Source of the DNA: an uncultured Clostridia bacterium
GTDB taxonomy: Bacteria > Bacillota > Clostridia > Oscillospirales > JAAYOS01
Assembly: GCA_947593925.1 (NCBI GenBank)
Contig: CANQDU010000003.1
Span: forward strand, 179,359-243,358
DNA length: 64,000 nt
Direction of reading: 5' to 3'
Position 1 is the stretch's first letter. The number at the start of each line of letters is the position of its first letter. Shown here piece after piece: positions 327 through 59,158 of this stretch. The notes below the pieces were generated by a model, which did no database searches, had not been told where the DNA came from, and saw only the letters and a program-made list of their open reading frames with translations. Made by a program: the position numbers and the translations under genes.

Positions 327-2941
327 TTTGCTTCCTCCTCCCCGTAGTATGCCGCGAGATACATCTGCTTTATCTCGCTTATGAGCGGATAGCGCGGGTT
401 CGCGCCGGTGCACTGGTCGTCAAACGCCTGCTCGCACATCTCGTCGAGCCTGTCAAGGAAGTCCTTCTCGTCGATACCGTACTCGCGTATCGTCTTCTTT
501 ATGCCTATCGCGGCCTTCAGCTCCTCGATCTTTGCGATGAGGTTTTCGAGGCTCTCGTCATCGTCCTTGCCCGCGATGCCGAGGAACTGAGCTATCTCCG
601 CGTACCGCGCCTTGGTGTGCGGATAGGCGTACTGCGGGAAGGTACCCATCTTCGGCGGGACCTCCTCCGCGTTGAAGCGGAGGACGTGGCTTATCATCAG
701 GGCGTTCGCGATGCCGTGGGCTATGTGGTGGAACGCGCCGAGCTTGTGCGCCATCGAGTGGCAGACGCCGAGGAAGGCGTTCGCGAACGCCATACCCGCC
801 ATCGTGGACGCATCCGCCATCTTCGCGCGCGCCTCCGGGTCGGAGGCGCCGTTATTGTAGGCGCGCGGCAGGTAGTCGAATATCGTCTTTATCGCCTTGA
901 GGGCTATGCCGTCGGTGTAGTCGGTCGCCATCATCGAGGCGTATGCCTCGAGCGCGTGGGTCATGGCGTCTATGCCGGAGGCGGAGGTGAGTCCGCGCGG
1001 CATGGTCATCATCATGTCCGCGTCAACTATCGCCATGTTCGGCAGGAGCTCGTAGTCCGCGAGCGGGTACTTCACGCCGGTCGTCTCGTCGGTGATGACG
1101 GCAAAGGGCGTCACCTCCGAGCCGGTGCCGGCGGAGGTCGGTATCGCTATGAAATACGCCTTTTCGCCCATCTTCGGGAACTTGTAGACGCGCTTGCGGA
1201 TATCCACAAAGCGCATAGCCATATCCATGAAGTCCGCCTCGGGATGCTCGTAGAGCACCCACATTATCTTGCCCGCGTCCATCGCGGAGCCGCCGCCGAC
1301 GGCGATGATGCAGTCCGGCTCGAAGGCGTTGAGCACCGCCGCGCCCTTCTTCGCGCTCGCGAGCGACGGGTCGCTCTCCACCTCGAAGAAGGTGGTGTGG
1401 ACGATGCCCATCTCGTCGAGCTTGTCGGTGATGGCCTTGGTGTAGCCGTTTTTGAAGAGGAAGCTGTCGGTGACGATGAAGGCGCGCTTCTTGCCCATGT
1501 CGCGGAGCTCGTCGAGCGCGACCGGCAGGCAGTGCGGCTTGAGGTAGACCTTCTGGGGCGTGCGGAACCAGAGCATATTCTCTCTCCTTTCGGCGACGGT
1601 CTTGATGTTCAGCAGGTGCTTGGCGCCGACGTTTTCGCTCACCGAGTTGCCGCCCCACGAGCCGCAGCCGAGCGTGAGCGACGGGGTGAGCTTGAAGTTG
1701 TAGAGGTCGCCTATGCCGCCGTGCGAGGACGGAGTGTTCACGACGACGCGGCAGGTCTTCATCCGCGAGGCGTAGAGCTCCACGAGGTCGCGGCGGTTCT
1801 GCGTATCGACGTAGAGCGAGGCGGTGTGGCCGTAGCCGCCGTCCTCGACGAGGCGCTCGGCCTTCGCGCATGCGTCGTCAAAGTCCTTCGCGCGGTACAT
1901 TGCGAGCACCGGAGAGAGCTTCTCGTGCGCGAACTCCTCGCGCATCGACACGTCCTCGACCTCGCCTATCAGTATCTTCGTGTTCTCCGGGACCTCGACG
2001 CCCGCGAGCGCCGCTATCTCCGGCGCGCGGCGGCCGACTATCTTCGAGTTCACGGCGCCGTTTATGACTATCGTCTTTCTGACCTTCTCGAGCTCGTCCT
2101 TCTCGAGGAAGTAGCAGCCGCGCGCGGCAAACTCGCGCTTCACATCGTCATAAATTTCATTTGCGACTATGGCCGACTGCTCGGAGGCACAGATCATTCC
2201 GTTGTCGAAGGTCTTCGAGTGGATTATCGAGTTCACCGCAAGGCGGACGTCCGCGCTCGCGTCTATGACGGCGGGGACGTTGCCCGCGCCGACGCCCACC
2301 GCCGGCTTGCCGGACGAGTAGGCGCTCTTGACCATGCCGGGGCCGCCGGTGGCGAGGATGATGTCCGCCTCGCGCATGACGGTCTGGGTCATCTCGAGGG
2401 TGGGTATGTCTATCCAGCCGATTATCCCCTCCGGCGCGCCGGCGGCGACCGCCGCCTCGAGCACGACCTTCGCCGCGGCGATGGTGCACTTCCGCGCGCG
2501 GGGGTGCGGGCTGAAGATTATCCCGTTGCGGGTCTTGAGCGCGAGGAGCGACTTGAATATCGCCGTCGAGGTCGGGTTCGTGGTGGGTATGACCGCCGCA
2601 ACGACGCCGATAGGCTCTGCGTAACGGGTGATGCCGTACGCCTCGTCCCGCTCGATCACTCCGCAGGTCTTCTCGTGGCGGTATCTGTTGTAGATGTATT
2701 CGGCGGCAAAGTGGTTCTTTATCACCTTGTCCTCCATTACGCCCATGCCGGTCTCCTCCACCGCCATCTTCGCAAGCGGGATGCGGGCGCGGTTCGCGGC
2801 GGTAGCGGCGGCAAGGAAGATCTTATCCACCTGCTCCTGGGTGTAGGAGGCGTACTCGCGCTGTGCCGCGCGCACCGAGGCAATGGCTTCGGCAAGGCGC
2901 TCGGGCGTGTCTACCACCGGGTATGTCTTCTTTCCTTTCAT
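323..2941 (-). CDS. adhE: Bifunctional acetaldehyde-CoA/alcohol dehydrogenase
   Basis: ORF 323..2998; ALDH domain followed by iron-ADH domain (GGGSAMDAGKIMW, SGIDAMTHALEAY, CHSMAHKLGAFHHIAHG); ATG start (MKGKKTYPV) at 2941, the longer form would use TTG. Confidence 0.95.
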   Translation of the reverse strand: MKGKKTYPVVDTPERLAEAIASVRAAQREYASYTQEQVDKIFLAAATAANRARIPLAKMAVEETGMGVMEDKVIKNHFAAEYIYNRYRHEKTCGVIERDEAYGITRYAEPIGVVAAVIPTTNPTSTAIFKSLLALKTRNGIIFSPHPRARKCTIAAAKVVLEAAVAAGAPEGIIGWIDIPTLEMTQTVMREADIILATGGPGMVKSAYSSGKPAVGVGAGNVPAVIDASADVRLAVNSIIHSKTFDNGMICASEQSAIVANEIYDDVKREFAARGCYFLEKDELEKVRKTIVINGAVNSKIVGRRAPEIAALAGVEVPENTKILIGEVEDVSMREEFAHEKLSPVLAMYRAKDFDDACAKAERLVEDGGYGHTASLYVDTQNRRDLVELYASRMKTCRVVVNTPSSHGGIGDLYNFKLTPSLTLGCGSWGGNSVSENVGAKHLLNIKTVAERRENMLWFRTPQKVYLKPHCLPVALDELRDMGKKRAFIVTDSFLFKNGYTKAITDKLDEMGIVHTTFFEVESDPSLASAKKGAAVLNAFEPDCIIAVGGGSAMDAGKIMWVLYEHPEADFMDMAMRFVDIRKRVYKFPKMGEKAYFIAIPTSAGTGSEVTPFAVITDETTGVKYPLADYELLPNMAIVDADMMMTMPRGLTSASGIDAMTHALEAYASMMATDYTDGIALKAIKTIFDYLPRAYNNGASDPEARAKMADASTMAGMAFANAFLGVCHSMAHKLGAFHHIAHGIANALMISHVLRFNAEEVPPKMGTFPQYAYPHTKARYAEIAQFLGIAGKDDDESLENLIAKIEELKAAIGIKKTIREYGIDEKDFLDRLDEMCEQAFDDQCTGANPRYPLISEIKQMYLAAYYGEEEAK

Positions 2942-2980
2942 TCGGATCACTCTTTCTGCCGCACACGCGGCCGGGTCAGA

Positions 2981-2998
2981 TTGATAAAAATTTAACAA
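2981..2998. promoter_or_regulatory. Putative Rex operator, adhE proximal
   Basis: TTGATAA-AAAT-TTAACAA, one mismatch from the clostridial Rex consensus TTGTTAANNNNTTAACAA. Confidence 0.6.
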
Positions 2999-3015
2999 AC
3001 TGCTTGACTACGACA

Positions 3016-3044
3016 ATTATATCACCCGCCGTTCCGAATGTACA
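3016..3044 (-). promoter_or_regulatory. adhE promoter
   Basis: Minus strand TGTACA-N17-TATAAT. Confidence 0.6.
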
Positions 3045-3094
3045 GCGGAATTTTCGCCAAACCGACACTTTTTCTGTTTTTCACAAACATCTAA

Positions 3095-3112
3095 TCGTTA
3101 ATTTTTTAACAA
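3095..3112. promoter_or_regulatory. Putative Rex operator, adhE distal
   Basis: TCGTTAA-TTTT-TTAACAA, one mismatch from the clostridial Rex consensus. Confidence 0.6.
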
Positions 3113-3299
3113 TATGGCATGTTGAAGGCCTGACCTTACTCCAAGTCGGCACCGTGTTTCCATACTTTGGCAAACATCCATCCTTATTGGAAAAGACTTC
3201 TTATATTACTCTCCCCAGAAACTCACCCGGTCGGACGACAGATTTGTCTGAAACAGAGCGTCGTCCTGTTCTGGGGGTAATGGTGTTGTGTCTGTATTC

Positions 3300-3545
3300 A
3301 GGAGAGGGTTTATTAAGGGAGAGGGCGGAGCCCTCTCCCTTAATCGCGCTTTTTGGATACTTTTTGCGCGAGCAAAAAGTATCGCAGGGGTGCGGGGCGG
3401 CACAGCCCCGCGAAGGTGTCGGAACCGCTAGGTTCCGTATAAAACCTCGAAGTTTTACTTCGTATCAGTAAAGAGGTCGCGGGCTCCGCCCACTGACGGG
3501 ACGCGGGCGTTGCCCCGCGAATGCTCGCGGGGCTTCCCCGCTAGA
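3300..3545 (+). repeat. Modular multi-hairpin intergenic repeat, family R2
   Basis: Hairpin series (TAAGGGAGAGGG/CCCTCTCCCTTA, GATACTTTTTGC-GCGA-GCAAAAAGTATC, GGAACC..GGTTCC, CGAAGTTTTACTTCG); reverse complement of the same modules at 63781-64000. Confidence 0.75.
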
Positions 3546-3588
3546 TGGGTGTGGGCTCGCCCGCAGATTTGCTGCGACGCGCGGCGCT

Positions 3589-4305
3589 TCAGCGTGCCGC
3601 GTCGAGCACTTCTCCGACGAGTCCGTGTATGACGAGGTTCGCGCGGCCGTCGCGCGGGGTCGGGTCGCGATTAATTATGACGAGCCGGTCACCCGGATAG
3701 AACTCGAGGAACGCCGCCGCGGGATAGACCGTGAGCGACGTGCCCGCGACTATCACGAGGTCGGCGCGGCGAAGCGCCCGCGCCGAGGCGTCTATCACGT
3801 CCGAGTCGAGCGACTCGTCGTAGAGCACGACGTCCGGCTTTATCACCCCGCCGCACTCGCAGTGCGGCACGCCCTCCGTCGCCGCGATATACTCCGCGTC
3901 GTAGAACTTCCCGCACCTCATGCAGTGGTTGCGGTGGACAGAGCCGTGCAGCTCGAGGACGTTCTTCGAGCCCGCCGCCTGGTGCAGTCCGTCGATGTTC
4001 TGTGTTATCACGGCGGAGAGCTTCCCCTCCCGCTCGAGCTCCGCGAGGCGGATGTGCGCGCGGTTCGGGAGTATCCCCGGCACGAGCAGCTTATCCCGGT
4101 AGAACTCGAAAAACTCCTCCGTGTGCGACATGAAGAAGCTGTGGCTCAGTATCGTCTCGGGCGGATAGAGGCGCTTCTCAGAGTAGATGCCGTCCGCCGA
4201 GCGGAAGTCCTTCAGTCCGCTCTCGGTGGACACTCCCGCCCCTCCGAAGAAAACTATCCTGCCGCTTTCCGCTATCCAGTTCCGCAAGGTCTCGCGCGCG
4301 TCCAT
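3589..4305 (-). CDS. NAD-dependent protein deacylase, Sir2 family
   Basis: GGAGVSTESGLKDFRS, TQNIDGLHQAAG, CMRCGKFY..CECGG zinc cysteines; start at MDARETL. Confidence 0.93.
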   Translation of the reverse strand: MDARETLRNWIAESGRIVFFGGAGVSTESGLKDFRSADGIYSEKRLYPPETILSHSFFMSHTEEFFEFYRDKLLVPGILPNRAHIRLAELEREGKLSAVITQNIDGLHQAAGSKNVLELHGSVHRNHCMRCGKFYDAEYIAATEGVPHCECGGVIKPDVVLYDESLDSDVIDASARALRRADLVIVAGTSLTVYPAAAFLEFYPGDRLVIINRDPTPRDGRANLVIHGLVGEVLDAAR

Positions 4306-4428
4306 GCAGATGCCTCCCTTTGCTCTTTTTCTACTATTATACTCCGCTCCTCCGCGCGTTTCAAGCGCGGAGGGAGGCGAGAGCATGCGGCCGGCCATCG
4401 AAACCCTGCCGGCACACCCGAGCCGGTG

Positions 4429-5313
4429 TCACCGCCGGCGCTTGCCCGCGCGGCGGCGGAGGTACGCGCCGACGAGTCCGCGCTTCGGCGCGGCGATCAG
4501 AGCCGCGAGGAACACCAGTCCCGCCGCCGTCGCCATCGCCCCCGCGAACGACACGTCGAGCGCGAGCGCCGCGCGGACGCCGATGATGGCGCTTGCCGCC
4601 GCCGCGGTCACCGCCGCCGCGAGCATCTTCCCGAAGCTCTCCGCAAGGAGATACGCCGTCGCGGCGGGCGCCGCCATGAACGCCACGACGAGCACCGACC
4701 CCACCGTGTCAAACGATCCCACCGCCGTGAGCGAGACGAGCGCCATCATAAGATAGTGCAGAAGCGCGGGCGAAAATCCCATCACGAGCGCCGCCGTCCT
4801 GTCAAATGAGACGGTCTTCAGCTCCTTGAAAAGAGCGACGGCGAACAGAAGGTCGAGCGCGAGCAGTCCGGCGGACGTGTATATCCCCTTCGCGCCGATA
4901 TCCGCGCCGAAGAGCGTCATCCGCTCGAAGGGCGCGAACGCCAGCTCGCCGAGGAGCACCGTGTCGGTGTCGAGATGCACGGAGGACGCATACCGCGTTA
5001 TGAGTATCACCGCAAGCGCAAACAGGAGTGGGAAGACCACGCCGACCGCCGAATCCTCGCTCACGAGGCGGCTCTTTACGAGCATTTCTCCGAGGGCGAC
5101 CGTCACAAGTCCGACGGCGGCCGCGCCGAGGAAAAGCAGCGGCGAGTCGAGCCCGCCCGCCGCGAAGTATGCGAGCACTACCCCGAGAAGAATGGTGTGG
5201 CTCACGGCGTCCGCCGTCATCGTCATGCCGCGCACGAGCAGCAGCGAGCCGCACACCGCGCAGGACGCCGCCGTCATCACCGCGATAAGTCCTATTTCAA
5301 GCTCCGCCGGCAT
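4429..5313 (-). CDS. Metal (Zn/Mn-type) ABC transporter permease, ABC-3 family
   Basis: Multi-TM ABC-3 protein in an operon with a second permease, ATPase and substrate-binding protein. Confidence 0.85.
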   Translation of the reverse strand: MPAELEIGLIAVMTAASCAVCGSLLLVRGMTMTADAVSHTILLGVVLAYFAAGGLDSPLLFLGAAAVGLVTVALGEMLVKSRLVSEDSAVGVVFPLLFALAVILITRYASSVHLDTDTVLLGELAFAPFERMTLFGADIGAKGIYTSAGLLALDLLFAVALFKELKTVSFDRTAALVMGFSPALLHYLMMALVSLTAVGSFDTVGSVLVVAFMAAPAATAYLLAESFGKMLAAAVTAAAASAIIGVRAALALDVSFAGAMATAAGLVFLAALIAAPKRGLVGAYLRRRAGKRRR

Positions 5314-6451
5314 CGCTCCCGCCTCCTTTCCCGTCCTCGTCCGGCGCGGACGCGGCGGCGTGTTTCTCTCCGTCAGGCGGAGCGGCGGGGATTATCCGCT
5401 CGTTCTGTGGAGCGTTGGGACTTCCCTCTCCGTCCGGCGGAGCGGCGGGGCGCGCACTCTGCTCCGTAGTGGTGCTCGCGTCCGGCGGCGTCCTGTCAAA
5501 TCCTTCGGGAGCGCTCACGTTCGCCGCGAGCACCCGGCGGCGGAGACGCCTCCGCCGGACGAGCTTTGCCGCTATCCCCCGCCCCGGCGCGGCGAGGAGG
5601 CTCACCCCCGCGATGACGCTCGCCGTCACGACTATGGCGGGGCCGGTCGGGACGCCGTCGCGGAGCGAGCTGTACGCCGTCCCCGCGACGCCGCTCACCG
5701 CGCCGAACACCGCCGCGAGCGCGGTCATTCCCGCGAGGCTCCGCGTCCACTGCCGCGCCGCGACCGCGGGCGCTATGAGCAGCGCGCTCATCAGCACCGC
5801 GCCGACAGCCTGTATGCCGAGCACCGTCACGGCGACGGTCATCGCCGTGAGCGCGCCGCCCGCCGCGCCGGAGCGGAGGCCGGCGCTCGCGGCGTACTCC
5901 GGGTCGAACGCGGCGAGCTTGAACTGCCGAAAGAACACGCACACGAGCGCCGTAAGCATCAGCGCGAGCGCCGCCGAGGCGCACACGTCCCGCATGACTA
6001 TCGAGCTCGCCTCGCCGTAGATGAAGCGCGCTAGACCCGCCTTCGACGCCCCGGGGAGGCGCTGCGCATAGCTCATCAGCGCGAGCCCAAGCCCGAAGAA
6101 CACGCTCATCGCGACGGCGAGCGCGCTTTCAAACTTTATCCGCGTCCTGCGCGCGGTGAGCACGGTCGCGGCGGCGGCGAGGACGGCGCTCGCCGCCGCC
6201 CCCGCGAGCAGCACGGCGGCGTCTTTGCTCCCGGTGATGAGGTACGCCGCGACGACGCCGGGGAGCGCCGCGTGCGAGGCGCCGTCCGCAAGCAGCGCCT
6301 CGCGCCGCAGTACCGAAAAGCAGCCCACGACGCCGCTCATCAGTCCTATTATGGCCGCGCCGAGCGCGACGGTGCGGAAGGTGTAGTCCGAGAGCAGAGC
6401 CGCAAGTGTCCCCGCGGCGAGGCGCGGCATCGATCCGAGCGCCGCCGTCAT
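5297..6451 (-). CDS. Metal ABC transporter permease, ABC-3 family, with Pro/Ala-rich C-terminal tail
   Basis: MTAALGSMPRLAAGTLAALLSDYTFRTVALGAAIIGLMSGVVGCFSVLRREALLADGASHAALPGVV. Confidence 0.85.
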   Translation of the reverse strand: MTAALGSMPRLAAGTLAALLSDYTFRTVALGAAIIGLMSGVVGCFSVLRREALLADGASHAALPGVVAAYLITGSKDAAVLLAGAAASAVLAAAATVLTARRTRIKFESALAVAMSVFFGLGLALMSYAQRLPGASKAGLARFIYGEASSIVMRDVCASAALALMLTALVCVFFRQFKLAAFDPEYAASAGLRSGAAGGALTAMTVAVTVLGIQAVGAVLMSALLIAPAVAARQWTRSLAGMTALAAVFGAVSGVAGTAYSSLRDGVPTGPAIVVTASVIAGVSLLAAPGRGIAAKLVRRRRLRRRVLAANVSAPEGFDRTPPDASTTTEQSARPAAPPDGEGSPNAPQNERIIPAAPPDGEKHAAASAPDEDGKGGGSDAGGA

Positions 6452-7167
6452 ACCGCCGCCTCCGCCGCGCGGCGGCTGTATGCGCGGTCGATATTTCTCT
6501 CGCAGAAGACGTCCTCCACCGCGCCGGAGGCCACCACGCCGAGGTTTATGATGCTCACCCAGTCGAAGTAGTCCCGCACGGTTCGGAGGTCGTGGTGGAC
6601 CATGACGACGGTCTTTCCCTCCGCGCACAGTCCGCGCAGGATGGATATTATTGCGCGCTCGCTCACGGCGTCCACGCCTTTGAGCGGTTCGTCGAGGAAG
6701 TAGATCTCCGCGTCCTGCGCGAGCGCCCGCGCGAGGAACACCCTCTGCTGCTGACCGCCGGAGAGCTCGCCTATCTGCCGCGAGGCAAACTTCTCCATAC
6801 CCACGCGCCGCAGGCACTCCTCCGCCGCCGACTTATCCGCCTTCCCCGGACGGCGGAACCATCCGAGCGAGGCGTACCGCCCCATCAGCGCGACCTCGTA
6901 TGCGCTTATCGGAAAGTCGCGGTCGATGCTCTCGCTCTGCGGAACGTAGCCGACCGCGCCGCGCCGTCCCCGCGCGGGTATCCTGACCTCGCCCGCGAGC
7001 GGCTTCACAAGGCCGAGCATCGTCTTCATCAGCGTCGTCTTGCCCGCGCCGTTCGGGCCGACTATCGCGGCAAAGCTGCCGCGCGGTATCGTGAGGCTCA
7101 CGTCCACGAGAACCGGCTTCTCACCGTAGCTCACCGTGAGGTGGCGCACCTCCGCCGCAGCGTTCAT
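6448..7167 (-). CDS. Metal ABC transporter ATP-binding protein
   Basis: Walker A GPNGAGKTT, signature LSGGQQQR, Walker B EIYFLDEP; start MNAAAEVRHLTVSYG. Confidence 0.93.
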   Translation of the reverse strand: MNAAAEVRHLTVSYGEKPVLVDVSLTIPRGSFAAIVGPNGAGKTTLMKTMLGLVKPLAGEVRIPARGRRGAVGYVPQSESIDRDFPISAYEVALMGRYASLGWFRRPGKADKSAAEECLRRVGMEKFASRQIGELSGGQQQRVFLARALAQDAEIYFLDEPLKGVDAVSERAIISILRGLCAEGKTVVMVHHDLRTVRDYFDWVSIINLGVVASGAVEDVFCERNIDRAYSRRAAEAAV

Positions 7168-8117
7168 TCCGCCGCCCCCTCTCCCGAAAGCGCGGAAACT
7201 ATCGTGTCGATGTTTTTTCGGAACGCCGAACTGTAGGCCGCGTCCTCGCCGTCGCCGAGCGAGTCGGAGTAGAGCGAGCCGCCTATTTCGAGCGTTCCGC
7301 CGCGCGAGCGCACCGCCGCGATAAGCGCCTCGGCGCTCTTCTGCGGCACGCTCGTCTCGACGAACACCGCCCGCACTCCGCGCTCCGCTATCATATCCGC
7401 GAGCGCGGATATTTCCGCCGTGCCGGCCTCGGCGGAGGTGTTCATTCCCTGTATGCCGCGCACCTCGAAGCCGTACTCCGCGCCGAAGTACCCGAAGGCG
7501 TCGTGCGCCGTGACGAGCACGCGGCGCTCCGGCGGGAGCTCCGCCGTCCTCTCGCGGATATAGCCGTCCAGCTCGTCGATCTCCGAAAGGTAGTCCTCGA
7601 GGAGCGCCGCATACCCCTCGGCGTTCTCCGGGTCGAGAGATGCAAGCTCGGAGGAGACGTGCTCCGCCGCCTCCTTCCACAGCGGCACGCTGAACCAGAT
7701 ATGCGGGTCGGGCAAGCCGCCGATGTATCTCAGACTGTCCTCCCCTATCGCGTCGCCCGCGGCGACGACCGTCTTCTCCCCCTCGAGACCCCGAAAGACG
7801 TCGCTCATCCTCCCCTCAAGGCCGAGGCCGTTTACGAGTATCATGTCGGCGGAGCGCAGGCGGCGAAGGTCGCCTGCGCTCGCCTGATAGGTGTGCGGGT
7901 CCACGCCCTCGCCCATCAGAGTCTCTGCCGATATGTACTCCCCTCCGAGCACCGAGGCGAGGTCGCCGAGCATCGTGGTCGTCGCGACGACGCGCAGTCC
8001 GTCCCCCGCCGCAGGAGTATCCTCCCCCGCGCGGGCGCCGCCCGGCGAGCATCCCGCGCCCGCAAGCGCGGCAAGGGCGGCAAGCGCCGCCGCTGCCGCG
8101 CGAAACAGCTTTCTCAT
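7164..8117 (-). CDS. Metal ABC transporter substrate-binding lipoprotein (ZnuA/MntA-like)
   Basis: Lipobox LAGAGC; VVATTTMLGDLASVLGG, GVDPHTYQAS, DPHIWFSV. Confidence 0.9.
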   Translation of the reverse strand: MRKLFRAAAAALAALAALAGAGCSPGGARAGEDTPAAGDGLRVVATTTMLGDLASVLGGEYISAETLMGEGVDPHTYQASAGDLRRLRSADMILVNGLGLEGRMSDVFRGLEGEKTVVAAGDAIGEDSLRYIGGLPDPHIWFSVPLWKEAAEHVSSELASLDPENAEGYAALLEDYLSEIDELDGYIRERTAELPPERRVLVTAHDAFGYFGAEYGFEVRGIQGMNTSAEAGTAEISALADMIAERGVRAVFVETSVPQKSAEALIAAVRSRGGTLEIGGSLYSDSLGDGEDAAYSSAFRKNIDTIVSALSGEGAAE

Positions 8118-8220
8118 AGTCTTCTGTCCTCCGCTCATTTATTGGGCGCGCCGGACGCAGACATGCGCGGGCGCTATCCCTCGTTACAGAGTATTCGGCG
8201 CCCGCCGGGGTGTGACGGCA

Positions 8221-8258
8221 AAAAAATTCCGCCCGACCCGCAATGGGCCGGACGGAAG
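8221..8258 (-). terminator. Intrinsic terminator downstream of GH78 gene
   Basis: Minus strand TTCCGTCCGGCCC-attgc-GGGTCGGGCGGAA-TTTTTTT. Confidence 0.85.
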
Positions 8259-8285
8259 CATAACGCACGGTTTGCAAAGCCGCGC

Positions 8286-10928
8286 TCAGAACGTGAATTT
8301 CGGCATCTCCGCCACGGGGAAGCCGTGCACCGGCGTGTAGCGGTACTCGTACTCGCCGGGCTCGAGCTCGAGCACGGCGTTCTCCCCGGACTTCTTCGCG
8401 CCCTCTATCACCGACGCGGAGCAGGCGGGGAGAACGAGCGTCGCCGTCGATCCGAACGGCACCGCCGCCTTCACGGTGAGGACGCCGTCCTCAAGCCGCC
8501 ACTCGCTCATGACGCGGCCCATAGCCGTATCCAGCTCGGCGCGAGCCCAGCCGAGCGCGTCGCTTGGTTCGGGGGCTATCGCGAAATGCCGGTAGCCGGG
8601 CGCGTTCTCGTCCGGGTTTATGCCGCACATGTTGCGGTACATCCACTCGACTATCGAACCGTATGCGTAGTGGTTGAGGGAGTTCATGCCGGTGTCCGAG
8701 ATGTACCCGTCCGGCATGACGGAGTTCCAGCGCTCCCAGACGGTCGTCGCGCCCATCTTCACCTCGTAGAGCCAGGACGGATAGTCGTCGTTGAGGAGGA
8801 GCCGGTAGGCATATCCGCTCGCGCCCGCCATCGAGAGGGCGCGGCAGAGCCAAGGCGTTCCGATAAAGCCGGTGGTGAGGTGGATATTGTTCTTCAGGAG
8901 CGCCACGGTGAGCTCCTCGACCGTTTTTTTCGGATCGGGGGATATGCCGAGGAAGACGGCGACGACGTATGCGGTCTGCGTAGTAAGCGCAAGACGTCCC
9001 GTAGGCGTGAAATACTCCGCGCGTATCGCGGCGAGTATCTCGTCCGCGAGCTTTTCGTGCTCCTCCGCCTCGTCGGTCTTTCCGAGGACGCGCGCGGCCT
9101 TGGCCGTGAGCTGCGCGGAGTAGCGGTAGTACGCGGAGCAGAGGAAGGTGTTGTCGGTCGCGCCGATGGGCGCCTGCGGCATTGTGTAGTTGTCGAGCGA
9201 GAGCCAGTCGCCGAAGTGGAAGCCGGTGTGCCAGAGGCGCGTGTCGCCGCTGTTCCCGTCCTCGCGGCGTATCCACTCGACCCACGCCTTCATATTGCGG
9301 TAGCAGTCCTCGAGGACTCGGCGGTCGCCGTAGTGCAGGTAGACGTTCCACGGCACGACCGTCGCGGCGTCCCCCCACGCGACCGACCCGGACGCCGCGC
9401 CGGGGCCGAACTGCCCGATGACGTCCGGCACGACGTGCGGAACGCTTCCGCCGTTCTTCTCCTGCTCCGCCCACATGTCGCGCATGACCTTCATATAGAA
9501 AGCGTCGCAGTCGGCGTTCATGCAGGCGGTGCCGCTGAACACCTGAGTGTCGCCCGTCCAGCCCATGCGCTCGTCGCGCTGAGGGCAGTCGGTCGGCACG
9601 TCCACGAAGTTTCCGCGCTGACCCCAGAGCGCGTTGAGGAAGAGGCGGTTGAGGTCGGGGTTCGAGGTCTCGATGCGTCCCGTCTCCTCGATATCCGAGT
9701 AGAGGACGCAGCCCGCGAAGTCGTCGCAGGCGGGCTCGCCGTCCCAGCCCTCGACCTTGACGTAGCGGAAGCCGTAGAATGTGAAGTGCGGCCGCGCCTC
9801 GACAGGCCGTCCGTCCGAGATGTAGGTATACTCCGCCTTCGCCGTGCGGAGATTGTCGCGGTAGAAGCAGCCGTCCTGAAGTATCTCACCGAAGCTGAAC
9901 GTCACAACTCTGCCGGTCTCGGACGGCGCGGCGAACTTCAAAAAGCCCACCATGTTCTGCCCCATGTCGAGCACCGTCTCGCCCTTCGGGGTGTGTATGA
10001 CCTCGACGGGGCTTATCACGCGCTTTATCTTTACCGGTAGGCTCAGACGCTCCTCGAGCTCGCCGAGGCCGAGCGTCACTGTGTGTACGCCGCCCCACGC
10101 TGAGTCGTCATAATTTGCGCCGGAGGCGCCGGGAAGCGCCGCGCGCGCGTCGTACACCTCGCCGTCGTATATGCTCGCGGAGACTACCGGCGACCGTGTG
10201 CTTCTCCAGTCCTCGCCGGTGGTGAAGACCTCGTGCGAGCCGTCCTCGTAATCGACGTGCAGCTCGCAGGTGAAGGCGAGCTCCTTTGTGTAGTAGTGCG
10301 GAGTGTCCGCATTGAAGCCGAGACGCCCCGCCCAGCCCTGTCCGAGCATGGCGAGGGCGGCGTTCTTACCCGGCATGACGAGCTTCGTTATGTCGTAGGT
10401 CTGGTACTGTATCCACCTGTCGTAGGCGTTGTATCCGGGGGTGAGGTATTCGTCTCCGACGCGCGCGCCGTTTATCTCAAACTCGTAGAGACCGATGCCC
10501 GAGACGTAGGCGCGGGCGCGCACCGGCGCGCCGCGCAGTTCGAACGTGCCGCGAAGATAGGGCGGCTCGCCCTCGCCGAGGTCGGCGGCTATCCACGGAG
10601 CCGTCCACGGCTCACTCATCTTGCCGGTCTCGAACCACGCGGAGGCGGAGGCGCTGTCGCCCCCGTCGCCCGTGACCTTCACGCGCCAGTAGTAGCGGGT
10701 GCGCGGCTCGAGCGCGAGCTCCGGCTCAAAGGAGAGCGAGTCGATATCCGCGCGCTCGCCGCTCGAATAGACGACGTTGCCGAAATCCTCGTCGAGAGCC
10801 ACATCCACGCACGCGGACGCCTGCCGCTTCGAGGGCGTGTCCTCCACGACCCACGAGAGGCGCGGACGTCCGAGTCGGAAGCCGAGCGGGTTTGTTATCC
10901 TGTTTGTCTTGAGACGGGTGAGCTTCAT
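8286..10928 (-). CDS. GH78 alpha-L-rhamnosidase
   Basis: 880 aa; DCPQRDERMGWTGDTQVF, NHYAYGSIVEWMYRNMCGI. Confidence 0.93.
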   Translation of the reverse strand: MKLTRLKTNRITNPLGFRLGRPRLSWVVEDTPSKRQASACVDVALDEDFGNVVYSSGERADIDSLSFEPELALEPRTRYYWRVKVTGDGGDSASASAWFETGKMSEPWTAPWIAADLGEGEPPYLRGTFELRGAPVRARAYVSGIGLYEFEINGARVGDEYLTPGYNAYDRWIQYQTYDITKLVMPGKNAALAMLGQGWAGRLGFNADTPHYYTKELAFTCELHVDYEDGSHEVFTTGEDWRSTRSPVVSASIYDGEVYDARAALPGASGANYDDSAWGGVHTVTLGLGELEERLSLPVKIKRVISPVEVIHTPKGETVLDMGQNMVGFLKFAAPSETGRVVTFSFGEILQDGCFYRDNLRTAKAEYTYISDGRPVEARPHFTFYGFRYVKVEGWDGEPACDDFAGCVLYSDIEETGRIETSNPDLNRLFLNALWGQRGNFVDVPTDCPQRDERMGWTGDTQVFSGTACMNADCDAFYMKVMRDMWAEQEKNGGSVPHVVPDVIGQFGPGAASGSVAWGDAATVVPWNVYLHYGDRRVLEDCYRNMKAWVEWIRREDGNSGDTRLWHTGFHFGDWLSLDNYTMPQAPIGATDNTFLCSAYYRYSAQLTAKAARVLGKTDEAEEHEKLADEILAAIRAEYFTPTGRLALTTQTAYVVAVFLGISPDPKKTVEELTVALLKNNIHLTTGFIGTPWLCRALSMAGASGYAYRLLLNDDYPSWLYEVKMGATTVWERWNSVMPDGYISDTGMNSLNHYAYGSIVEWMYRNMCGINPDENAPGYRHFAIAPEPSDALGWARAELDTAMGRVMSEWRLEDGVLTVKAAVPFGSTATLVLPACSASVIEGAKKSGENAVLELEPGEYEYRYTPVHGFPVAEMPKFTF

Positions 10929-53494: not shown

Positions 53495-56400
53495 TTACTT
53501 TACGATGTTCTCGCAGAAGCGCATGAGTATCGTCGCGATCTGCGCGCGAATCGCTCCGCCGGACGGTGCGAGCGTCGTCTCGGTCGTGCCGTTGATGAGC
53601 TCGGTTCCGACGGCCCAGCTCATCGGGGCGGTCGCGTAGCTCTGGACGCTCGCCGCGTCGGTGTAAGCCGTAAGCTCAGCGGTGGTCGTGACGTCGTACT
53701 TCTTGTAGGTCGCGTAACGATACAGGATAGTCGCGGCTTCCTCACGGGTGAGGTCGCGCTCCGGACGGAAGGTTCCGTCGCCGTAGCCGCCGACTATCTC
53801 GTTCGCCGCAGCCCAGTTGATCGCGTCGCTGTACCACTTGCCCGCCAGGACGTCGCTGAACGGAATGTCCTTCGTGACAGCGGGCTCACCGTCGAGACGG
53901 TAGAGGATAGTGACGAGCATCGCACGGTCGGTCTGATCGTTCGGCGCGAACGTTGTCTCGCCGGTGCCGCCCATGAGGCCCTTCTCGACGACGTAGTCGA
54001 TGGCGTCAACGTACCACGCGTCCTTGACAACGTCGGTGAACTTCGCGGACGGAGCGGGCTTCGTGCCCTCGACGAACGTGGCCTTGACGGTCGCGCCGCC
54101 GGCGGGCATCGTGAAGCTGTAGGTTCCGTCGGCGTTCTTCGTGACGGTGACAGCCGTGCCGGTGCCGTTCTGGGTGGCGGTGACGGTGTCAACCGAGTAA
54201 CCCTCCTTCGGCGTGACGGTGACGGTTATCGTCGTGCCCGCGGTCGCGCTCCTCGGCGAGACGGTGACGGTGCCGTTCGGGTTTGCCGGGACGGTCACGG
54301 TGTAGGTCGGGTTGACGCCGCTGCCGGTGTAGGTTACGGTGTAGGTCTTGCTTCCGTCGCTGTTTTTGACTTCGCTCACATTGTAGCCGGTGCCGGCCTC
54401 AATCTTGCCCGTGAACTTGCTGTCGGTATCGGTGAGGGTGAAGGTCACAACGCGGCTGACGTACACGTCATCCTTGATTTCCTCGGAGCTTTCGATCTTG
54501 ACCGTTCCGCCATTCGGGACAGCGTTCACGGCCTCCTGAAGCGTCTCGTAATAGGTGGTAGTACCGGTGCTATCGGCGACGCTGGCTGCAGGCTTCGCAT
54601 CCAGGCTGATGGTGAACGGGCTCAGACCGTCGTCAGATGTGAAGGTAATTGTATCACTAGAACTCGAGATAGTCTCAGACTTGTGGTAGTGGTTGCCATT
54701 CTTCTCATGCAGGACGTAAACGCTGGTATTGCCAACACTGTCAACAAATCCATCAGGCACGCCAACGGTCAGCTTGATGGGCTCGCTTACCGTAAGAGGC
54801 TGATTCTCCTTGATCTTGACAGCGTTCGCACTGCCTTGTTCAAAGTTAAGATTTTCAGTGCTACCTTCAGTCGTAGCAACCAAATCGTAGACCGCGCTGA
54901 TGTCCACGGAGAGAGTCTTGCTATCCGTGTCATAGCTATTGATCTCAAGCGTCAGATGCGGCTGTACGAAGAACTTGACACTCTCTGCATCAACAGTGCT
55001 ACCGCTACCCGCAGTGGTAAGCTGCTCCGCCGCTGTCTCCGGGTTAATGTCGCTCACATTGCCAGTAACAGCCTCGGTGGCTACATCGTTGAGCGTAGTA
55101 TCACCAGTCGCAGGCTGGGTTGCATTGGCAATCGTAGTCGCATCTGCCTCCTGAATGCCCGTCTCTTTAGGGTCATTCTTTACATTCGTATCGCCGGGGA
55201 CAACAGTAGCGTTGACAACCGTAATTTCAGACACAACGGTGAAGGCCTCGCCCTGCTTCAACAGCTTGAAGGTGGCGTCGCCGTTCTTAACCTCTGTGCC
55301 GTTGAGTTCCTTGACGGTGACCTTGTTGTCCTTGTCGATGGAAACCTTAACCTCGCCGGCGGTGTCGTCGATGGCGTTGCCGAGGGTCAGAGTGACCTCG
55401 ATCGTCTCGTTCGCGGCAAGGCCGGTTGCGCTGCCGGTGACGGTGATGGTGTGGTCGTTCACCGTCGCCTCGGCGGTGACAACGGCCTTGGTCGCCGTCT
55501 CGCTAGCCTTGACCTCCTTCACCTTGACATCGGTGATGGTGTCGGTGACGGAGACGGTCTTGGTGGTGCCGATGGCCTCGAACTCATGATCGGCAAGAGT
55601 CGGAGCGCCGGTCGTCTCGTCGCACTTAACATCATCAGAACCGGTAATACGGCTGCCGGTATAGGTGTACAGCTGAATGGTGTAAGTGCCAAGATCCATA
55701 CCGGTACCCGGCTTCGTCTGATTACCATTCAGGAAGCTGAACGCCTGAGTGTGGTACTGACCGTTAGTGGGAGTTGCAAAGAAATCCCAATATCCGTTGG
55801 GGCCGGACACGATGACAACATACTTGCCCGTGCTGACATCCTTCGTTGTCGGGAAACTCCAATACATGGTCTCGGCAACGCAGTCAGTCACGATGTTCTC
55901 ATCCTTGTTATACGTGAAGCCGACCTCGGAGAAGTCCATGGCGTCTATCTTCGCGCCGGTGAGGTCAACGTTGATGGTGGCGGTATCGACTACCTTGCCA
56001 TTTTCGGCCTTAAAGGTGAGGTTGATGATATCCTCCTTTACAGAAGCCAAATCGTAGTAGAAGGCAATGCCCTTAGCGTTATTACCGTCAACGTTCTCTT
56101 CAAGCGCAGCGTCTGTAACATCAGCACCTGCCCATGTGGCAGTCACTTTTTCCGCAGTCTCAGGAGCCGCGACATAGAAGCCGATCCAGTAGCCGCCTAC
56201 GCCGGTCGTCGCACCGTTCAGATGGTACTTGACCTCATCGGCAGTGACCTTAACATCGTAAGTGTTGGTGGCCGGGTCTACCGCAGTTACAACCTTACCG
56301 TTTGTAACCGGCGCGGTGATCGGGTCGGTCTTGCTGTGATCCCCAGTGGGAGCCAGACCGGTCTCCAAAATACCTTCGTCGGAGATGACCTTGCCGTCCG

Positions 56401-57700
56401 CATCGATAGTAAGACCATCGGCGAGATAAGCCGAGATGTCAGCCGGGTCGTCGCCGTCCATGAACTTGCCGCCGGAAATCTTTATTGTATTGTCGCCGGT
56501 AGGTGTCTTGCTGGTATCACCCATCTCGCTGTATGCAACAGCGGGGTTGCCGGTGACAACGGTGGTAGAACCTTCGGGAACAGTTACCTTAGTCGCGCCT
56601 GTGTAGCCTGTGTTCTTATCCAGCGTAATACCGGCTGCGGGAACAGGGTACCTCTCGCCATTCTGTATAGCATCACCTACGGTGACAGTACCGGTGGCGG
56701 TGGCGGTTATAGTGCCGCCAGCGACCGTCAGTTCGCCTCCGCGGACAACAATACCAGCGCCACCGCTGATTTTTGCGTCGTCTTTGACGGTCAACTTTCC
56801 GGCGGGCAGATAGATGCCGCAGGTACTGTCAGTGCCGGTGATAGTGCCGCCCTCAACGGTTATATTAACTTCGCCGCTATAATTATCAGTGTTCTGAGCA
56901 CTTCCGTTGGTTGAAAGGGCAAAACCATTAGGGTTGTTAATAACAGCGTTTTCCTTGACCGTCAGGTCGCTTTTACCATACACTGCTACCGAGCCGCTAA
57001 TGTTAACGGTTCCACTAATAGTGGCAGTCGTCTTACTTGTGTCTTTGCCGAAACCAACCTGAACTGCAGGATATTTGTCATTATCACCGCTGCTAGTTTT
57101 CGAAATTGTACCGCCGGTAATCGTACCGGTAGCAGCATCTTGGATATTCACTGCCGGCTTACCCTTGCTGGTTATTGTGCCGCCAGTGATGTTGAGCGTT
57201 GTGCCTTGTCCTATTGCAACAACAGAACCCTGACTACCATTTATAGCGGTAATCGTACCGCCTTGGATAGTTAGAGTTGCACCGTTCTGAGCCTGCACAA
57301 CTTTATCTGCAGTACTGCTGATAGTTCCGCTGCCAGTAATGATTAAATTGCCAGTGCTTTCCCCACTCTCAGTCTTTTTATCAACAATCAAGAGTTTTTC
57401 GCCCAAATCTAACTCGGCGCCTGTCTGTAAATTCAATGTTACTTCGGTGGCAATCCTCAGACTATCCCCATCTTGCGGATAGCTCACTTTGCCGGTGATG
57501 GTTACTGTAAACGGAGCAGTTTTTCCATCATTGCCAGAACCGTTGACCGCGACATTTTGCGCACTTTCGCCAAATGCGTCCTGAAGCTCATCAAGAGTCG
57601 TAAGGTACTTCTTTTCCGCACTCGCCGCGAACGCGGTTGTCGGCAGCAGCGTCAGCACCATGCAGAGCGCCAGCACAAGGGATAAAACTTTCTTGCTCAT
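53495..57700 (-). CDS. Large secreted SLH-domain surface protein with beta-helix-like N-terminal repeats
   Basis: Signal peptide MSKKVLSLVLALCMVLTLLPTTAFAAS; GGTIT-type repeats; three C-terminal SLH repeats (FTDVVKDAWYVDAIDYVVEKGLMGG...). Confidence 0.93.
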   Translation of the reverse strand: MSKKVLSLVLALCMVLTLLPTTAFAASAEKKYLTTLDELQDAFGESAQNVAVNGSGNDGKTAPFTVTITGKVSYPQDGDSLRIATEVTLNLQTGAELDLGEKLLIVDKKTESGESTGNLIITGSGTISSTADKVVQAQNGATLTIQGGTITAINGSQGSVVAIGQGTTLNITGGTITSKGKPAVNIQDAATGTITGGTISKTSSGDNDKYPAVQVGFGKDTSKTTATISGTVNISGSVAVYGKSDLTVKENAVINNPNGFALSTNGSAQNTDNYSGEVNITVEGGTITGTDSTCGIYLPAGKLTVKDDAKISGGAGIVVRGGELTVAGGTITATATGTVTVGDAIQNGERYPVPAAGITLDKNTGYTGATKVTVPEGSTTVVTGNPAVAYSEMGDTSKTPTGDNTIKISGGKFMDGDDPADISAYLADGLTIDADGKVISDEGILETGLAPTGDHSKTDPITAPVTNGKVVTAVDPATNTYDVKVTADEVKYHLNGATTGVGGYWIGFYVAAPETAEKVTATWAGADVTDAALEENVDGNNAKGIAFYYDLASVKEDIINLTFKAENGKVVDTATINVDLTGAKIDAMDFSEVGFTYNKDENIVTDCVAETMYWSFPTTKDVSTGKYVVIVSGPNGYWDFFATPTNGQYHTQAFSFLNGNQTKPGTGMDLGTYTIQLYTYTGSRITGSDDVKCDETTGAPTLADHEFEAIGTTKTVSVTDTITDVKVKEVKASETATKAVVTAEATVNDHTITVTGSATGLAANETIEVTLTLGNAIDDTAGEVKVSIDKDNKVTVKELNGTEVKNGDATFKLLKQGEAFTVVSEITVVNATVVPGDTNVKNDPKETGIQEADATTIANATQPATGDTTLNDVATEAVTGNVSDINPETAAEQLTTAGSGSTVDAESVKFFVQPHLTLEINSYDTDSKTLSVDISAVYDLVATTEGSTENLNFEQGSANAVKIKENQPLTVSEPIKLTVGVPDGFVDSVGNTSVYVLHEKNGNHYHKSETISSSSDTITFTSDDGLSPFTISLDAKPAASVADSTGTTTYYETLQEAVNAVPNGGTVKIESSEEIKDDVYVSRVVTFTLTDTDSKFTGKIEAGTGYNVSEVKNSDGSKTYTVTYTGSGVNPTYTVTVPANPNGTVTVSPRSATAGTTITVTVTPKEGYSVDTVTATQNGTGTAVTVTKNADGTYSFTMPAGGATVKATFVEGTKPAPSAKFTDVVKDAWYVDAIDYVVEKGLMGGTGETTFAPNDQTDRAMLVTILYRLDGEPAVTKDIPFSDVLAGKWYSDAINWAAANEIVGGYGDGTFRPERDLTREEAATILYRYATYKKYDVTTTAELTAYTDAASVQSYATAPMSWAVGTELINGTTETTLAPSGGAIRAQIATILMRFCENIVK

Positions 57701-57930
57701 TGCTATTTTTACTCCTTTCAAGTAAAGTTATTGTTATTTTGCGGGGGACTTTTTCGCGGCTGCCCGCCCCCTCTCTTGCTCCGCCCGGACAACGGCGCCG
57801 CAGGCTGCGGCAAGCCGGAGACACCGTTGTCCAAGCAGACTCTGAAAGGAGACGGAGAAGCCGTAAGAAAGCTCCTCCTCCCGACGCTTCGCCTTGCCCC
57901 GAAGCGCCGGGAGCAGCCGCTTTCACGGCG

Positions 57931-57958
57931 TTTGCGAAAAACTCTACTTTTTGGCAAA
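57931..57958 (+). repeat. Left arm of 28-bp imperfect inverted repeat
   Basis: TTTGCGAAAAACTCTACTTTTTGGCAAA; 24/28 match to reverse complement of 58068-58095. Confidence 0.8.
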
Positions 57959-57996
57959 TCACGGGACGGCTGAAAGAGACCGAAAATTCCCGAAAA

Positions 57997-58025
57997 TTTT
58001 TATGAAAAAGGACTAGCATTTTCAA
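57997..58025 (-). promoter_or_regulatory. Weak candidate promoter toward SLH gene
   Basis: Minus strand TTGAAA-N17-TAAAAA. Confidence 0.35.
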
Positions 58026-58033
58026 TTTAATGG

Positions 58034-58042
58034 TGATATAAT
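58034..58042 (+). promoter_or_regulatory. Extended -10 promoter facing away from SLH gene
   Basis: TG-A-TATAAT (TGATATAAT); weak -35. Confidence 0.5.
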
Positions 58043-58067
58043 TAGGCAAAACGATGTAAGGGTCGAG

Positions 58068-58095
58068 TTTGCGGAAAAGTAGAGTTTTTTGCAGA
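58068..58095 (-). repeat. Right arm of 28-bp imperfect inverted repeat
   Basis: TTTGCGGAAAAGTAGAGTTTTTTGCAGA; 15-bp core AAAAGTAGAGTTTTT is the exact reverse complement of 57937-57951. Confidence 0.8.
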
Positions 58096-58119
58096 TTTTT
58101 TCAGCCCAAAAATTATCAA

Positions 58120-58153
58120 ACCCGCCTGTCTCTCGCAGGCGGGTCTCGCTTTT
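58120..58153 (+). terminator. Terminator-like hairpin oriented +
   Basis: ACCCGCCTG-tctctcg-CAGGCGGGT-ctcgctttt; same CGCCTGTC style as other + strand terminators. Confidence 0.55.
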
Positions 58154-58179
58154 GCCGGAAAGCTCCGGCTTTTTTCGCG

Positions 58180-58217
58180 AAAAAAAGGATGCTGTCTAGT
58201 GACAGCATCCCTTTTTA
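58180..58217 (-). terminator. Intrinsic terminator after tsf
   Basis: GGATGCTGTC/GACAGCATCC with minus-strand TTTTTTT. Confidence 0.85.
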
Positions 58218-58228
58218 TAAGTTTTCGC

Positions 58229-59158
58229 TTACTTGCCGCCGACCATCTTGGCGACTTCCTCGGCAAGGTTGTCCTCGCGCTTCTCGATGCCCTCGCCGCG
58301 CTCCATACGCACGAAGCGGGTGACGGTTATCTTGCCGCCGAGCTCCTTTGCGACCTGCGCGACGTGCTGCGCGACGGTCTGCTTGTCGTCCTTGACGAAG
58401 GCCTGCTCGAGCAGGCAGTATTCGCTGTAGTACTTGTTCATACGTCCGTCTACCATCTTCTCGATGATGGCGTCCGGCTTCGGCTTGGCGGACTGCTCGT
58501 TCTCGTTCTTCGCCTGAGCGAGCAGGATCTCGCGCTCCTGACGGAGGGTCTCCTCATCGACGTCCTCCTTGCGCAGGAACTTCGGGCTCATCGCGCACGC
58601 CTGCATGGCGATGTCACGCCCGAGCTCGGTGACGGCCTCGGGGGCGACGCCCTCGAGCTCCATGCCGACGAGAACGCCGACCTTGCCGCCCGCGTGGATA
58701 TACGGAACGGTGACGCCGCCCTCATAGCGCACGAAGCGGCGGACCTTGATATTCTCGCCTATGACGAGGACCTTGTCGCGCTGCGCGTCGGCAACGGTGC
58801 CGCCCTCGGGATAGTCCATATTCATGAGCGCATCGACGTCGGCGGGGTTCTTCTCCGCGACGACCTTCGCGACGTTCGCGACGAACTTCTTGAACTCCTC
58901 GTTCTTTGCGACGAAGTCGGTCTCGCTGTTGACCTCGACCGCGACGGCGACGCCGTTCGGATAAGTCTCGGCAAGCACCATGCCCTCGGCGGCGACGCGG
59001 CCGGCCTTCTTCTCGGCGGCGGCGAGGCCCTTCTCGCGGAGATAAACTATCGCGGCGTCCATATCGCCGTTCGACTCGGTGAGCGCCTTCTTGCAGTCCA
59101 TCATGCCGACGCCGGTCATCTCACGGAGCTTCTTAACATCAGCGGCTGTAAATGCCAT
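58229..59158 (-). CDS. tsf: Elongation factor Ts
   Basis: MAFTAADVKKLREMTGVGMMDCKKALTESNGDMDAAIVYLREKG. Confidence 0.97.
   Translation of the reverse strand: MAFTAADVKKLREMTGVGMMDCKKALTESNGDMDAAIVYLREKGLAAAEKKAGRVAAEGMVLAETYPNGVAVAVEVNSETDFVAKNEEFKKFVANVAKVVAEKNPADVDALMNMDYPEGGTVADAQRDKVLVIGENIKVRRFVRYEGGVTVPYIHAGGKVGVLVGMELEGVAPEAVTELGRDIAMQACAMSPKFLRKEDVDEETLRQEREILLAQAKNENEQSAKPKPDAIIEKMVDGRMNKYYSEYCLLEQAFVKDDKQTVAQHVAQVAKELGGKITVTRFVRMERGEGIEKREDNLAEEVAKMVGGK

Follow-up and report, generated by a model that had tools for sequence, protein, structure and literature searches.

The 165 bp at positions 57931 to 58095 of the window, by which we mean the whole stretch of 64,000 nucleotides analysed here, very probably form an invertible promoter, one of eight in the genome, which is flipped by a small serine recombinase encoded elsewhere and which switches a gene for an SLH surface protein. 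In the mechanism that we propose, the recombinase (G000:C9:36548-37195, G000 being the window's own genome) would bind the paired 28-bp sites, and strand exchange at the central CT dinucleotide would flip the ~137 bp between them. In the ON orientation the extended -10 promoter would transcribe through the left site and a structured leader of ~230 nt into the SLH gene; in the OFF orientation, which is that of the window, it would fire away from the gene into tandem terminators, both promoter activity and termination of the OFF transcript being predicted from sequence. Eight independent switches, eight SLH genes and one invertase would allow a population to present many combinations of surface coat. 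The features of the locus are as follows:

57931..57958, plus strand: left (gene-side) 28-bp recombination site, TTTGCGAAAAA-CTCTAC-TTTTTGGCAAA, conserved in 17 cassettes of four genomes
58068..58095, minus strand: right 28-bp recombination site, the inverted copy, read from the sequence and found by repeat search
57945..58081, no strand: invertible segment between the two putative crossover points (site centres), reversed in G004:C199 and G003:C2 between colinear flanks
58014..58042, plus strand: predicted promoter by consensus match, -35-like TAGCAT at 58014-58019, 17-bp spacer, extended -10 TGATATAAT at 58034-58042
57701..57930, minus strand: 230-nt 5' leader with a structured RNA core at 57780-57914, from homologous leaders and covariation
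57843..57851, minus strand: putative anti-SD sequence CUCCUUUCA in the leader RNA, complementary to the SD and conserved in all aligned leaders
57712..57720, minus strand: SD region UGAAAGGAG of the SLH gene, read from the sequence
53495..57700, minus strand: SLH surface-protein gene, 1401 aa, with signal peptide, three SLH domains and an InlB-type repeat domain, from domain search and translation
58229..59158, minus strand: conserved flanking gene that anchors orthology by alignment, which from its translated sequence we take to be tsf (elongation factor Ts)
58118..58146, no strand: terminator hairpin CCCGCCTG..CAGGCGGG from a hairpin scan, immediately outside the right site, facing the OFF-state promoter and the end of tsf
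58154..58169, plus strand: second terminator-like hairpin in the path of the OFF-state transcript (hairpin scan)
58187..58210, plus strand: third terminator-like hairpin in the same path (hairpin scan)

The inverted repeat, its promoter and its copies

The left arm of the repeat (57931-57958) is TTTGCGAAAAACTCTACTTTTTGGCAAA and the right arm (58068-58095), as its reverse complement, is TCTGCAAAAAACTCTACTTTTCCGCAAA; direct reading confirmed that the two match at 24 of 28 positions, share an identical core of 15 bp (AAAAACTCTACTTTT) and enclose 109 bp, as originally predicted, and a repeat search over a 1.5-kb region returned this pair as the longest inverted repeat. The extended -10 at 58034-58042 was likewise found where the original prediction had placed it, on the plus strand and pointing away from the SLH gene, whose start codon lies at 57698-57700 on the minus strand, and the strong-looking promoter is in the OFF orientation as had been anticipated. 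The locus accordingly has the inverted-repeat sites flanking a promoter that are expected of an inverton, the promoter being recognized by consensus only. Its -35 element, which reads TTGCAT in the paralogue on C15, is weak, and because of this an automatic promoter scan misses the window promoter; a promoter predicted by consensus match is kept in 16 of the 17 aligned cassettes. The weak TTGAAA-N17-TAAAAA that had been thought to face the gene did not hold up, as it is a bare consensus match within the flipping segment and turns along with it, and the scan finds TTGAAA-N18-AAAAAT in its place. A match of the promoter pattern in Saccharibacteria had no such inverted-repeat site around it and was taken as chance. 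The gene downstream, predicted to encode an SLH surface protein, indeed specifies three SLH domains and a signal-peptide-like start.

Searching G000 (1.87 Mb, 19 contigs) with the segment revealed seven further copies of the inverted repeat, whose occurrence elsewhere in the genome the original prediction had raised, giving eight 165-bp cassettes that each lie upstream of a gene encoding an SLH protein (8/8). In every one of them the distance between the site cores is exactly 138 bp (for C12, whose left site is degenerate, after alignment by hand), and since the genome has eight such cassettes with this invariable distance a chance origin of the repeat is excluded. About a third of the 27 SLH open frames in G000 carry a cassette and, judged by these copies, the window cassette belongs to a regulon of SLH genes. 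A hairpin of the GCCTGTC type stands in the right flank, directly outside the right site, in seven of the eight G000 cassettes, a recurrence that would be expected if its role is to absorb the OFF transcript. Seven of the eight promoters face away from their gene (OFF); the eighth is that of C12, where the segment is reversed relative to the right-flank terminator, which shares 90% identity with its C5 counterpart. This bias fits cells that are mostly OFF, and could equally mean slow flipping. As a separate observation, the cassette loci at G000:C3:140000-158000 and G000:C2:2000-20000 are 97.6% identical over 1.46 kb on different contigs, including short SLH genes of 463 and 520 aa, a near-identity that, from the sequences, is the mark of a recent duplication or gene conversion.

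Within the genus, cassettes were detected in G000 (eight), G004 (six), G001 (two) and G003 (one), a total of 17, to which follow-up searches contributed one divergent G004 copy; at the search sensitivity used they were absent from the congener G002 and from 54 genomes of other genera. Across the four genomes seven cassettes are ON and ten OFF, these being sequence states of MAG consensus sequences, called by the strand of the promoter relative to the leader or, for C12, relative to the conserved terminator.

Inversion between orthologous loci

Inversion had been proposed as an inference, and both orientations were found at the orthologous locus across related genomes. The tsf/SLH locus on G004:C199 is colinear with the window and 93.8% identical to it through tsf, the right flank and the leader, and its segment aligns to that of the window in reverse only, with ends at 57931 and 58093. 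In G003:C2 the segment is likewise reversed between colinear flanks, and the comparison of orientation across relatives that had been suggested at the outset therefore yields two inverted counterparts of the window locus; a third orthologous inversion distinguishes G004:C28 from G000:C4. Flipping the segment in silico raised its identity from 60.5 to 94.5% for one relative at the window locus, and from 56.2 to 78.8% and from 53.9 to 90.9% for the other two inverted pairs, and two control pairs of orthologues in the same orientation lost identity upon the same treatment. The presence of both orientations at one locus, as is characteristic of an inverton, is accordingly observed between related genomes, the differences being between species-level MAGs. 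Sequence comparison thus establishes the inversion, its boundaries, its multiplicity and its target genes; phase variation within one population is predicted.

These loci also bear on the possibility that the segment switches nothing and is instead a MITE-like mobile element, non-autonomous and dispersed, which was inserted either way round, as the eight copies in one genome, the terminal inverted repeats and the constant length might suggest. Orthologous loci, however, differ in the orientation of the segment without its gain or loss, an empty insertion site of the segment was not seen, and what recurs between paralogous loci is a whole unit of leader, segment, SLH gene and usually the terminator. 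The orthologous inversions largely refute this reading, which was dropped and is regarded as extremely improbable.

Site centres and the candidate recombinase

Over 17 site pairs, of which 16 were tabulated automatically and that of G004:C7, with its divergent promoter, was read by hand, the consensus of the invertible promoter's site is TTTGCGAAAAM-CTCTAC-TTTTTSGCAAA. Comparison of G001:C12 (ON) with G001:C56 (OFF) revealed that positions 1-13 remain with the flank and positions 18-28 travel with the segment, and the window and G004:C199 agree with this half-site exchange, outer halves staying and inner halves moving; the crossover therefore lies within site positions 13-18. The left and the right site have the same central dinucleotide (positions 14-15) in 16 of the 17 pairs and the same six central bases in only 10 of 17, G004:C1 for instance sharing TT/TT although the neighbouring bases differ. 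Serine recombinases require a matching two-base overlap between partner sites, and the identical central overlap expected for a small serine recombinase is found in 16 of the 17 cassettes; a match of the dinucleotide without a match of the six bases favours such an enzyme and is hard to reconcile with a tyrosine recombinase. The cassette of G003:C2, the sole one detected in G003, has unmatched centres (CA/CT), faces its gene and is predicted to be locked ON; G003 keeps its recombinase despite these centres, which points either to a locked cassette or to a centre rule that admits exceptions.

The supposition that a recombinase would have to act in trans proved correct in that a candidate is encoded outside the window, and the search of the genome that had been proposed yielded one shared small serine recombinase and four tyrosine recombinases. 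The former, of ~205 aa, belongs to the resolvase catalytic family (PF00239, 102.5 bits), a domain it has in common with the small serine recombinases Sin/Tn552 Bin3 and Hin/Gin, Sin in its best-known role being a resolvase. Its best match among solved structures is Sin (2r0q). In G000, G001, G003 and G004 it occupies the same gene neighbourhood with an open frame at 91-95% identity, and among the recombinases found it is the only one common to all four cassette genomes at >90% identity. In G002, which has no cassettes and is the sole cassette-free congener compared, the two neighbour genes are adjacent and the recombinase is cleanly absent. In the window's genus the neighbourhood of the recombinase gene yielded neither a cassette nor an inverted-repeat pair of this type, and because of this the link between enzyme and site rests on co-occurrence and on relatives.

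Homologues of the enzyme occur in 116 of 397 genomes of the order (29%). Those of other families, at 71-84% identity, are followed directly by a similar inverted-repeat pair in 11 of 16 larger neighbourhoods, with a gap of 74-123 bp, a centre that is mostly GTGTAC and arms resembling the sites of the window. After the pair there usually comes a gene of the same direction, for example one for a 1442-aa protein whose N-terminus reads like that of an SLH protein. A -10 that is perfect or nearly so occurs in most of these segments and usually faces back to the recombinase; in G196 it faces the next gene. Such promoters next to homologues would tie enzyme and site together independently of co-occurrence, and members of the family appear to serve a single promoter in cis outside the window's genus but many, in trans, within it. 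The identification of the serine recombinase as the flipping enzyme is strongly, if indirectly, supported by these comparisons, and one shared invertase probably flips all cassettes. Elsewhere among the homologues, those at G337:C6:33000-44000 and on G260:C3 are followed by an inverted-repeat promoter segment of ~170 bp, and the next gene after the former is, by eye, an NRPS-like open frame of 2348 aa which, if it is the NRPS it looks like, would be a phase-variable biosynthetic gene.

The four tyrosine recombinases encoded in G000 raise the alternative that the same invertible promoters are flipped by one of these, whose target would be two 11-bp arms enclosing a 6-bp spacer. The site can also be read as TTTGCGAAAAA-6 bp-TTTTTGGCAAA, resembling an Xer/dif-type site, the tyrosine enzyme RecV acts in trans on cwpV (PMC2784873), and a survey connects Clostridia inverton group 139 with tyrosine invertases (PMC11892184). 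Seven of the 17 cassettes, however, have mismatches between left and right 6-bp spacers, yet such loci occur in both orientations. The candidates are a 393-aa integrase (G000:C5:95990), a 278-aa enzyme (C1:311685) and an Xer pair on C2; the first two were not found in G001, whose cassettes show both states, the Xer pair is also present in the cassette-free G002 and in other genera, and none accounts for the inverted-repeat pairs beside serine homologues. A tyrosine recombinase is thus an unlikely agent of the flipping.

Two of these enzymes have neighbourhoods of interest in their own right. Within G000:C5:94500-106500 the 393-aa integrase, conserved in G000, G003 and G004 (933-2114 of that locus, plus strand), directly adjoins a convergent pair of SLH genes (2289-5171, plus strand, 960 aa; 5727-8507, minus strand, 926 aa) whose N-termini are nearly identical (inverted copies of about 680 bp, 94% identity), and the arrangement is possibly a second, gene-swapping inversion system for surface proteins. 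Within G000:C1:305000-319000 the 278-aa enzyme (6632-7468, minus strand) lies upstream of small HU-like and HTH-like genes, with a large secreted VWA-type protein also downstream and an adjoining large serine recombinase, these assignments being made by eye; G003 and G004 have several recombinases similar to it in size and score.

A further alternative holds that the switch is ancient, that flipping has ceased and that each lineage is locked in one orientation. The unmatched site centres of G003:C2 and the degenerate left site of C12 would agree with this, and the orientations are known from MAG consensus rather than from reads. It is nevertheless a distinctly unlikely account, given that the recombinase persists as a conserved open frame in all four genomes, that all site centres but one match and that strong conservation extends to the arms of the sites and to the constant length, which is what selection for flipping should produce.

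Known systems and the leader RNA

In Bacteroides fragilis the serine recombinase Mpi inverts 13 regions, seven of which are capsule promoters, according to a paper citing Coyne 2003 (PMC4747536). By analogy, the invertible promoters described here function like the Mpi regulon, with a single serine recombinase that would serve, in trans, many scattered invertible promoters of surface components. They are set apart by the phylum, by their targets, which are SLH proteins rather than capsule loci, and by the structured leader RNA that nearly every cassette has. Against the model of the Mpi master DNA invertase family (NF009949) the recombinase reaches 49 bits, where the cut-off is 272. Multi-locus master invertases are best known from Bacteroides, and the present system would be a sequence-supported counterpart in Clostridia that acts on surface-layer-type proteins, offering a route into coat switching in uncultured gut Clostridia, for which phage, immunity and adhesion are likely targets.

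Among Clostridia, the original prediction had invoked cwpV of Clostridium difficile, an analogy that was imprecise: cwpV shares an inverted-repeat switch upstream of a clostridial surface-protein gene and, with RecV, a recombinase encoded elsewhere, whereas its promoter lies outside the 195 bp of inverting DNA, with inverted repeats of 21 bp and inversion proposed to make or break a terminator, and the conserved promoter described here lies inside the segment (PMC2784873). The cassettes also resemble gut invertons of the PhaseFinder type in having short inverted repeats around an intergenic promoter near surface genes, as described in an inverton survey of a defined gut community (PMC11892184). 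In that survey the most significant Clostridia inverton-invertase pair uses tyrosine enzymes, and the main text does not mention a serine enzyme, SLH genes or a GTAC-centred site (PMC11892184). Our literature search was small and confined to open papers, and the system may already have been described elsewhere.

A homologous leader of 222-240 nt, measured from left site to start codon, is present at 14 of 15 tabulated loci, the sole exception being C12 with an unrelated leader of 90 nt; the C5 leader, outside the table, was recovered at a lower score by a covariance model, which brings the count to 15 of 16 checked cassettes, the 17th (G001:C56) running off its contig. Across 13 distinct leader cores there are three main hairpins with 41 pairs, 14 of which have changes on both sides. 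All five whole-structure measures exceeded all 500 shuffles and every slid control; as related sequences can exceed shuffles, the slid controls and the compensatory changes weigh more. Among 397 genomes the covariance model matches 15 cassette loci and nowhere else convincingly: four weak matches are the opposite strand of true ones, and a borderline match outside the genus in G152 (E 8.7e-4) was taken as chance. No Rfam 15 family came near its gathering cut-off over 57600-58250. On this comparative evidence the leader is a structured RNA, conserved and covarying, that occurs at cassettes only.

The leader may gate translation through pairing of CUCCUUUCA with UGAAAGGAG. Tentatively, and as a rather doubtful extension, the switch could have two layers, with inversion turning on transcription and the genus-specific leader RNA then gating translation, such that one invertase and one type of RNA would coordinate the SLH coat; if so, possibly few coat proteins would be made at once.
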